Of a stretch of 44,308 nucleotides of DNA, positions 2,584 through 5,281 are shown one piece after another. The notes below the pieces were generated by a model. It saw only the letters and a program-made list of their open reading frames with translations, searched no databases and was not told the origin of the DNA. The DNA is from Desulfobacteraceae bacterium (GTDB lineage Bacteria > Desulfobacterota > Desulfobacteria > Desulfobacterales > JALSRD01), in assembly GCA_027061725.1 (NCBI GenBank), contig JAMOVG010000181.1:1-44308 (forward strand), in the 5' to 3' direction. Numbering within the stretch: position 1 is the first letter of the stretch; every line of letters begins with the position of its first letter. The position numbers and the translations under genes are program-made.

Positions 2584-3090
2584 GTGCCGATGCGATCTGG
2601 AAGCGCCCACATGTGGCTGAGCGCCTGCTGGCAGGTGCCGCTCATCCTGCTGATCTCCGTGGTGACGGCCCTGAGCGTCAACGCCCTGCGCAGGGAGGGC
2701 CGCCTGGCGTTGACGGACGGGCCGCCCCCGCCGGCCGGCGACGAGCTGCGGATATCAATAGACCGGGCGCAGGAGCTGTTTCAGCAGGGGGCCGCTGTCT
2801 TTCTCGACGCCCGTCCGCGCCGGGATTACCTGCGGGGGCACATCCGCGGGGCGCTCAGCCTGCCCTGGCAGGAGGTCGACGACCGTATCGCGGAGGTCGC
2901 CGACCGGCTGACGGACGACAGGGTCATCATCACTTACTGCGACGGGCAGCAATGCACCCTCAGCCATCACCTGGCCCGCTATCTCAAGGACATGGGTTTT
3001 TCCCGGGTGCGAGTGCTTCCCAACGGCTGGACGCGCTGGCGGCAGAGCGGTCTGCCCGTGGCGCAGGGCACGGGGGAAGAAGAGCGGTGA
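2584..3090 (+). CDS. Membrane-anchored rhodanese-like sulfurtransferase
   Basis: 168 residues from GTG at 2584, chosen because GGAGG ends seven bases before it. Residues 11-33 form one membrane anchor, so the domain probably faces the periplasm. A single rhodanese domain follows (about 55-160): ISIDRAQELF, then FLDARPRRDYLRGHIRGALSLP, then the active-site loop ITYCDGQQCTLS. C119 is the expected catalytic cysteine that carries the persulfide; C124 in the loop is unusual and could form a disulfide with it. The stop overlaps the start of the MauE/DoxX gene (GTGA), so the two are translated together and probably act in one sulfur or thiol-redox step (inference). Confidence 0.85.
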   Translation: MPMRSGSAHMWLSACWQVPLILLISVVTALSVNALRREGRLALTDGPPPPAGDELRISIDRAQELFQQGAAVFLDARPRRDYLRGHIRGALSLPWQEVDDRIAEVADRLTDDRVIITYCDGQQCTLSHHLARYLKDMGFSRVRVLPNGWTRWRQSGLPVAQGTGEEER

Positions 3091-3581
3091 AGGGAGCATC
3101 TCCGGCCGCCAGGCGCACTTTCCGCAGCGGGCTTTTTGCCCGTCTGGCCTACCATGTCGTGCGCCTGGCGCTGGGAGCCATTTTCGTCTATGCCAGCATC
3201 GACAAGATCCGCCACCCGGCGGCCTTCGCCGAGGCCATCGCCAACTATCGCATCCTGCCGGACGCGCTGGTCAACCCCACGGCCGTGATTCTTCCCTGGC
3301 TGGAGGTGGTCATCGGCGCCCTGCTGATGGGCGGTGTCTGGATGCCGGGGGCCGCGGTGCTGGCCACGGTCCTGCTGACGGTCTTCGAGGGGGCCTTCAT
3401 CTTCAACATCGTGCGCGGGCTCAACGTCTATTGCGGGTGTTTTGCCAGCACCGGCGAGGTGCTGCACGGCAACGCCTGGTACCTGGCCCGCGATTCGCTT
3501 TTCCTGGCCGCCGCGCTCTATCTGCTGGTGACGATTTTCCGCTCCACGGGAAATGACGCGGACCACGGCGCGGCCCCGTAA
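3087..3581 (+). CDS. MauE/DoxX-family redox-associated membrane protein
   Basis: 164 residues from GTG at 3087, overlapping the rhodanese stop. Four membrane segments are apparent. Typical family features are the GAIFVYASIDKIRHPAAFAEAI motif after the first helix and a YCGCF motif (C116, C118) near the third. MauE proteins support disulfide formation in methylamine dehydrogenase; DoxX relatives act with thiosulfate or quinone redox. Coupling with a membrane rhodanese suggests electron transfer to or from a periplasmic persulfide or disulfide, via quinone (inference). It is the last gene of the plus-strand group and converges with the permease. Confidence 0.82.
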   Translation: MKGASPAARRTFRSGLFARLAYHVVRLALGAIFVYASIDKIRHPAAFAEAIANYRILPDALVNPTAVILPWLEVVIGALLMGGVWMPGAAVLATVLLTVFEGAFIFNIVRGLNVYCGCFASTGEVLHGNAWYLARDSLFLAAALYLLVTIFRSTGNDADHGAAP

Positions 3582-3693: not shown

Positions 3694-4839
3694 TCACGTG
3701 GGACCGCACTCGGAAGCCGTCGGCAGGATATCGTCGGGCGCCGCAGCGGAGTCCGGCCGGGGTTTGCGCCGTTTTCGCAACCAGGCCGCCGCAAGCCTGC
3801 CCAGCGGTTTGACCGATATGAGCAGCACCGTGACGGCGCCGGCCCACTGCACCCAGGCCGGCAGCAGCTCGGCGGCCTGGCCCGCCACGGCCTGCGCCGA
3901 TATGCCCCAGTGGGTGTAGATGCGGTCCACCAGGAGTCCGAAAACCACGCTGCAGATGGCGATGGAGGCGAGGTAAATGGCCGTGGCGCGCTTGCCCAGG
4001 GTGCCGAAGAGCACGGCCAGCGAGGCCATGTTGGTGGCCGGACCGGCCAGCAGGAAGACCAGGGCCGCGCCCGGGCTGACGCCCTTGAGGATCAGGGCCG
4101 CCGCGATGGGCGTCGAGGAGCTGGCGCAGATGTAAAAGGGAATGCCCACCGCCAGCATCAGCAGCATGGCCTGCAGGCCAGCGCCGAGGTACCGGCCGAG
4201 AAAGTCGGCCGGCACCAGCACGGTGATGACGCCCGCCAGCAGCAGTCCCACGAAGAACCAGGCCGCGATGTCGGCCCACAGGTCCCCGAAAGCGTAGGCC
4301 AGGCCGGCCCGGATCCTGGCGACAAAGCTGTGGTGATGCCGGTGCTTTTCCGGGGGGCAGTCAATGCCGTCGCAGCAGCCGTCCACCGGGCAGCTTCGAT
4401 CGGGTTCCGCCACCTGTGCATCGGGCGTGAAGGACATCAGATTTTCGGCGATGCCGGCCACCGAGGCGGTGATGAAGGCCACCAGCGGCCGGGCCACGGT
4501 CATGATGGGGTCCAGCAGCGCATAGGTGATCAAAATGGAGTCCACGCCCGACTCGGGCGTAGAGATCAGGAAGGCCGTCGTGGCGCCCCGGCTAGCGCCC
4601 TGTTTGCGCAGCGACACGGCTGCGGGAAGCGTGCCGCAGGATCACAAGGGAATGGGAATGCCCAGTACGGCGGCCTTGAAAACGGACGCAAAGCGGCCCC
4701 GTCCCAGGTGGCGGGCCACCGACTGGGGGTTTAAGAAAACCCGCAGCAGGCCGCTGACCAGCAGGCCGAACAGGATGTACACCGAGGCCTCCAGCAGCAG
4801 CTGCCAGGAGGCGGTCGACACATCGATGATCGTATTCAT
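3694..4839 (-). CDS. COG0701/DUF318 permease, probable selenoprotein (in-frame TGA at 4642-4644)
   Basis: Two open frames, 4645-4839 and 3694-4641, are in the same phase and separated only by TGA. Together they give 381 residues of a YraQ/ArsP-type permease. The family motif around the junction is normally PLCSCGxxP; here it is GIPIPL-TGA-SCGTLPAA, so TGA replaces the first conserved Cys and is best read as selenocysteine (Sec66), giving Sec-Ser-Cys. The second half has the matching IPFYICASSSTPIAAAL and LLAGPATN motifs. A soluble loop carries CPVDGCC, C161 and HRHHH (residues 150-170), which may bind metal. Start at 4839 follows AAGGAAG. It lies 45 bases after an SmtB-type regulator, so export of a metal(loid) or its organic form is likely. 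Alternative: a simple nonsense mutation. Confidence 0.82.
4607..4624 (-). promoter_or_regulatory. SECIS-like hairpin downstream of the permease TGA
   Basis: On the minus strand, 17 bases after the TGA, CGCAGC and GCTGCG form a 6-base-pair stem closing the loop CGUGUC. The loop has G in its second place and GU, and starts 23 bases after TGA. This fits the bacterial SECIS pattern of a small apical loop, with G in its first two bases, roughly 16-37 bases after the codon. An overlapping alternative stem (GCGGCACG with CGTGTCGC) is also possible. Confidence 0.65.
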
Positions 4840-4884: not shown

Positions 4885-5259
4885 CTACTCCGAGATGTGC
4901 GCCAGGCTGACTTCCAGCAGGGTCTCCACGTGGTGATCATCCAGGCAGTAGTAGACGATCTGCCCTTCCCTGCGGCTCCTGACCAGCGCCAGGTCCTTGA
5001 GCCGCCGCAGCTGGTGGGACACGGCCGACTCGCTCAGGCCGGTGAAGGCGGCCAGGTCGCAGACGCACATCTCCGTTTCCCGCAGGGCGATCATCATCTT
5101 CAGCCGGCTGGGATCTCCCAGGGCTTTGAAAATGCGCGACAGCCCCTCCAGCGCCGGCGCGGGCACCTGCGAACGCCGCGCCTGCTCCACCTTGTCCTGG
5201 TGAACCACCCGTACCCGGCAGCCTTCCCCGTCGGCAACCCCCGCCCCGGCAGTTGACAT
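4885..5259 (-). CDS. SmtB/ArsR-family metal-sensing repressor
   Basis: 124 residues from ATG at 5259, chosen for the AAGAGG eight bases upstream; an in-frame TTG at 5280 lacks one. A winged-helix ArsR domain spans about 40-110, with SESAVSHQLRRLKDLALV as recognition helix. It has both known metal sites of the family: CVCDLA (C65, C67), as in CadC/ArsR alpha-3 sites, and D108-x-H110-x10-H121-x2-E124, whose spacing is identical to the zinc-binding alpha-5 site of SmtB. It should be a dimeric repressor released by zinc, cadmium, lead or a similar soft metal. It is transcribed just ahead of the Sec permease and surely controls it. Which metal is the true inducer is not determined by sequence. Confidence 0.9.
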   Translation of the reverse strand: MSTAGAGVADGEGCRVRVVHQDKVEQARRSQVPAPALEGLSRIFKALGDPSRLKMMIALRETEMCVCDLAAFTGLSESAVSHQLRRLKDLALVRSRREGQIVYYCLDDHHVETLLEVSLAHISE

Positions 5260-5281
5260 ATTCCAGCCTCTTCTTTTCAAT

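Follow-up and report, generated by a model that had tools for sequence, protein, structure and literature searches.

The locus considered here raises the question of whether a membrane transporter gene interrupted by a single in-frame TGA is broken at this position or is read through it as a selenoprotein. It lies in a 44,308-nt stretch of DNA, referred to below as the window, from a sulfate-reducer-like bacterium, and its minus strand carries from 4839 to 3697 a frame of 381 residues in which codon 66 (4644-4642) is the lone internal TGA and a further TGA at 3696-3694 ends the gene. The first-pass annotation had described two open frames in the same phase, split by this TGA at the first cysteine of the motif PLCSCG, and its coordinates proved correct to the base, as the stop occupies the first Cys of this otherwise invariant motif in the context GIPIPL[TGA]SCG. 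Its assignment to the COG0701 permeases, with homology to the family on either side of the TGA, also held and could be narrowed to the SO_0444 family: the read-through protein matches the NF033936 profile (418 bits, cut-off 300) over residues 11-344, which span both sides of the TGA, and PF03773 with 158 bits. The PLCSCG and YICA..STP motifs and the Cys-rich loop of the SO_0444 family are all present, the first Cys being replaced by U. Judged by profile and motifs, the gene therefore belongs, within the COG0701/ArsP_1 superfamily, to the Cu/Zn efflux transporters of the SO_0444 family. An identity as SaoE (NF040736) was also considered and rejected, as the score of 189 bits lies below the cut-off of 325. 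The features of the locus are listed in Table 1.

Table 1. Features of the transporter locus, in window coordinates.
Feature	Position	Strand	Remarks
SO_0444-family metal efflux transporter (NF033936, PF03773)	3694..4839	(-)	381 residues, one internal UGA, terminal TGA
UGA codon 66, probably read as selenocysteine	4642..4644	(-)	first residue of (U/C)SC in the PLCSCG motif
Cys68, second motif cysteine	4636..4638	(-)	invariant in 34 aligned homologues
bSECIS-type hairpin, 6-bp stem CGCAGC/GCUGCG, loop CGUGUC	4607..4624	(-)	folding and comparison
Cys/His-rich loop (CPVDGCCDGIDC...H..HHH)	4330..4392	(-)	second Sec site here in some relatives
Cys238, second-half motif (GIPFYICASSSTP)	4126..4128	(-)	invariant (alignment); helix break in model
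ArsR/SmtB-type metalloregulator	4885..5280	(-)	directly upstream of transporter, 45 nt gap; NF033788, 96 bits

The family is widespread in the order to which the window belongs, where the NF033936 profile finds some match in 262 of 291 genomes and a match above the cut-off in 127, and many of the matching genes carry one TGA. From the fetched loci and from named records, 122 distinct homologous genes were assembled and compared at codon 66. This codon is TGA in 37 of them and TGC or TGT in the other 85; neither TAA, TAG nor any other residue occurs, so that the cysteine which the first-pass annotation had proposed to look for at residue 66 of the homologues is indeed the only alternative to TGA.

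The hairpin that had been reported 17 bases past the TGA, with GU in a 6-base loop, was recovered exactly. In CGCAGC-CGUGUC-GCUGCG, 17 nt separate the TGA from the stem, the loop begins 23 nt after the TGA, and the second and third loop bases are GU. Bacterial SECIS (bSECIS) elements are expected to have a loop of 3-9 nt, a stem of 4-16 bp, a G at loop position 1 or 2, a distance of 16-37 nt from the UGA and an MFE of -7.5 or lower (PMC13188914); with a loop of 6, a stem of 6, the loop sequence CGUGUC, a distance of 23 nt and an energy of -9.1 to -9.8 kcal/mol, the hairpin lies within all of these limits. Folding of the sequence after the TGA, as had been suggested, gave a divided result: the isolated hairpin is stable (-9.8 kcal/mol, z -2.35), but in a 63-nt context of the window sequence alone a competing fold is the minimum, with an energy no better than that of shuffled sequences. 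Because this competing fold wins, the hairpin is unconvincing from one sequence, and the evidence for it comes from the comparison between homologues.

For this comparison, all 37 TGA genes were taken without selection by hairpin motif. Among 213 windows of seven codons, the one at codon 73 ranks first in synonymous conservation in the TGA genes (0.71; median 0.39, sd 0.07), while in the Cys genes the same window is ordinary (0.37 vs a median of 0.38). The stem found here, referred to as type A and scored by its first five pairs, forms in 28 of the 37 TGA genes as opposed to 1 of the 85 Cys genes, and its sixth pair varies between C-G, U-G and U-A. The lone Cys gene with this stem (L099) has a TGA gene (L064) as its nearest neighbour on the tree. 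TGA genes outside the type-A group carry alternative hairpins at the equivalent place, namely CUGCC-GGC-GGCAG in five genes and CCUGU..ACAGG in two, and only a weak hairpin was found by the criteria applied in two further TGA genes (L061 and L113). A rank test of hairpin energies between TGA and Cys genes gives p 2e-11, a value inflated by shared relatedness, and for this reason more weight was placed on the within-gene window comparison and on the tree. Across the homologous sequences, the hairpin signal lies far beyond chance. The sharply frozen hairpin provides clean examples of bSECIS elements, with at least three different solutions at one coding position.

The hairpin also bears on the possibility that translation stops at UGA66 and restarts downstream, for example at the GTG at 4617, to give a transporter in two pieces. 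A 307-aa open reading frame with this start does exist; however, the GTG lies inside the conserved hairpin, the restart would remove the first half-motif, and an exchange of TGA and Cys at one codon without any TAA or TAG is not expected from a restart, which makes such a split transporter very improbable.

A tree of the homologues, built without column 66, requires at least 10 changes between Sec and Cys, 6 of which are forced by well-supported branches. A natural pair is found within one genome (G046), whose two genes, L081 with TGA and L084 with TGC, have the same hairpin and are identical over 75 nt around it save for codon 66 and one other base.

With regard to the selenocysteine machinery, for which selA, selB, selC and selD had been named as the genes to search, three of the four were found in the window's genome. 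These are the tRNA-Sec gene selC (76 bits; anticodon TCA according to ARAGORN), selA (621 bits in a profile search) and selD (363 bits), the last with a TGA of its own at the Sec position, CG[U]AAK. SelB was not found in this genome with either the full model or the winged-helix domain, the matches being EF-Tu as the best, IF-2 and related factors. The assembly is a draft of 410 contigs with an estimated completeness of 97.6%, and of 22 relatives tested, 21 have selB, among them the sole other genome of the genus, so that an assembly gap seems the likeliest reason for its absence. Synteny gave no location for the gene: in the genus sister, selB is flanked downstream by a gene that is matched only weakly and in part in the window's genome, and upstream by a hydrogenase gene whose match there is a different, TGA-containing gene. 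The tRNA-Sec with its TCA anticodon speaks against a reading of the UGA as Trp or some other amino acid, and together with the agreement of independent genomes, and with homologues that always have Cys and never Trp where TGA is missing, it leaves this explanation, or that of a sequencing error, scarcely credible.

An in-frame stop, in an assembly in which selB was not found, could also be a nonsense mutation in a gene whose remainder is decaying. Decay of this kind is contradicted by the sequence downstream of the TGA, where homology continues with 64-72% identity to the nearest Sec genes and dN (0.2-0.33) is well below dS (about 1 or more, with some values saturated). Moreover, the stop at codon 66 is common to 37 distinct genes of many families, in which TGA is the only stop found there, TAA and TAG being absent, and the hairpin is synonymously frozen in the TGA genes only. 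A broken gene is therefore highly unlikely. Since codon 66 is exchanged between UGA and Cys, the hairpin is frozen, the tree calls for about ten switches and the Sec machinery is present for the most part, the selenoprotein interpretation of the first-pass annotation is well supported by evidence that is drawn from sequence comparison: the exchange at one codon, a conserved hairpin specific to the UGA genes, and selC, selA and selD. The gene very probably encodes a full-length selenoprotein of 381 residues in which UGA66 is decoded as selenocysteine by means of the downstream hairpin. In the proposed mechanism, the hairpin 17 nt past UGA66 would recruit SelB with Sec-tRNA-Sec, and the ribosome would then insert selenocysteine at UGA66.

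The ArsR/SmtB regulator next to the transporter contains MCVCD and the complete alpha5 metal-site motif DxHx10HxxE, a pattern that marks the zinc site on alpha5 in SmtB-type sensors. Among the homologues for which sufficient sequence upstream was available, a similar regulator directly precedes the transporter gene in 25 of 36 with Sec and in 63 of 81 with Cys, and the window's transporter is probably controlled by this adjacent metal sensor. At its other end, the transporter is convergent with a gene for a MauE/DoxX-type membrane protein (window 2613-3581, plus strand), which ends just past the 3' end of the transporter gene.

In the AlphaFold model of the transporter (pLDDT 78.7, 34 sequences), the helices break at residues 61-66 and at the counterpart 236-238, so that Sec66/Cys68 lie at one helix break and Cys238 at the other. 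Breaks of this kind are typical of ion-transporter folds. The top match of the model in VIA-align is the arsenite exporter ArsB (10tp_A; Z 14.2, 283 residues, rmsd 5.5, 10% identity), and dicarboxylate, nucleoside and TRAP transporters rank next; as this Z is within the range that helical membrane proteins reach without kinship, the likeness of the model to ArsB and ion-transporter folds is suggestive only. A Foldseek search of the model against solved structures gave no significant match (E no better than 0.013), and no solved structure related by sequence to the transporter was found. From the model, we infer that Sec66 may be a mid-membrane ligand for soft metals in the export path. Together with Cys68 and Cys238 at the broken helices, it would bind the exported metal (Cu+, Zn2+ or Cd2+), and its selenolate might bind a thiophilic metal more strongly or faster than a cysteine.

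The main rival to a role as metal ligand is a redox role, in which Sec is likewise inserted but Sec66 and Cys68, as a UxC pair, close reversibly to a selenenylsulfide. This would gate the transporter or protect it, or would serve to reduce a metal or metalloid while it is being exported. The UxC motif with its invariant Cys68 would suit this role, and redox enzymes make up the majority of selenoproteins whose function is known (PMC13188914). However, Sec66 is placed at a helix break in the transporter core opposite a second invariant cysteine, Cys238, no redox partner gene was seen beside the transporter, and the genetics of the family (PMC3219624) indicate Cu/Zn export; a redox role thus appears rather unlikely. 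An exporter of metals in which one codon has repeatedly changed between Sec and Cys, near-identical natural pairs included, offers a direct route to the advantage that selenium may bring to the binding and transport of metal.

A second position at which Sec may occur was found in 11 SO_0444 relatives (L034, L040, L067, L069, L070, L071, L073, L074, L077, L078 and L080), which have an in-frame TGA in the Cys-rich loop at reference residues of about 151-154, mostly as GG[TGA]GC...C (GGUGC). L069 is the sole one of these to carry TGA at both the loop and codon 66. It is conceivable, at somewhat less than even chances in our estimation, that Sec has been gained and lost repeatedly at the mid-membrane USC site and at the UGC site of the soluble loop because it is a direct metal ligand, selenium then serving transport and not redox catalysis. 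A description of the loop site was not found in the open-licence full-text literature. Separately, one homologue with TGA at codon 66 (L134) has an additional in-frame TAG in the loop, at reference residue 165.

The SO_0444 family has been listed as a predicted selenoprotein with the motif UxC, represented by WP_014809615.1 with GenBank annotation as the source (Table 1 of PMC13188914, 2026), and the Sec-containing SO_0444 transporter is therefore not a new selenoprotein family. The listed protein belongs to the same NF033936 family and has a single Sec in UxC, like USC here; its entry is based solely on GenBank annotation and does not name the replaced cysteine, while the relatives studied here show both USC and UGC. 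Since both fit UxC, the Sec of WP_014809615.1 may be located at either the transmembrane USC or the loop UGC site. Our additions are the comparative evidence, the natural Sec/Cys pairs and the second Sec site in the Cys-rich loop of relatives. No paper linking COG0701 or SaoE to selenoproteins was found among open-licence full texts. Other membrane transport proteins are likewise predicted to contain Sec, namely the YeeE/YedE thiosulfate transporter family selenoprotein (GUxSG) and the SaoP permease (PMC13188914), which are set apart from SO_0444 by family name and motif. SaoE is of the same superfamily as the window transporter, and several selenoproteins are found among the products of the Sao genes (PMC13188914).

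Experimental knowledge of the family comes from SO_0444 of Shewanella oneidensis MR-1, a member of the same transporter family with a metal regulator next to it, whose mutants tolerate Zn and Cu poorly (PMC3219624). Export of Cu and Zn by the window transporter is accordingly a prediction from the family, the Shewanella member being known as an exporter by its mutant phenotype only. In contrast to the ArsR/SmtB-type regulator found here, the regulator beside the Shewanella gene is ZntR-like, and the accessible text describes no selenocysteine in the Shewanella protein (PMC3219624). A Nitratiruptor member of the family responds to Cd and Cu (PMC10092412).

A further TGA was observed elsewhere in the window's own genome, in a gene for a [NiFe] hydrogenase large subunit (L180; G000:C22:10539-12182, minus strand), where it occupies a Cys site in the N-terminal nickel motif RSCGV[TGA]TYTH, with the C-terminal DPCIACGVH intact. 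Classical NiFeSe hydrogenases have their Sec at the C-terminal motif. A large subunit with CxxU in the N-terminal motif is missing from Table 1 of PMC13188914, where the forms listed are UxxC. Dozens of relatives have one TGA in the hydrogenase gene, and at the site itself, read in 20 loci, there are 15 TGA, 4 Cys and one locus without a motif match. A downstream hairpin sequence, CTGTCCTCGGTGAGGGCAG, is nearly frozen in the TGA genes only.
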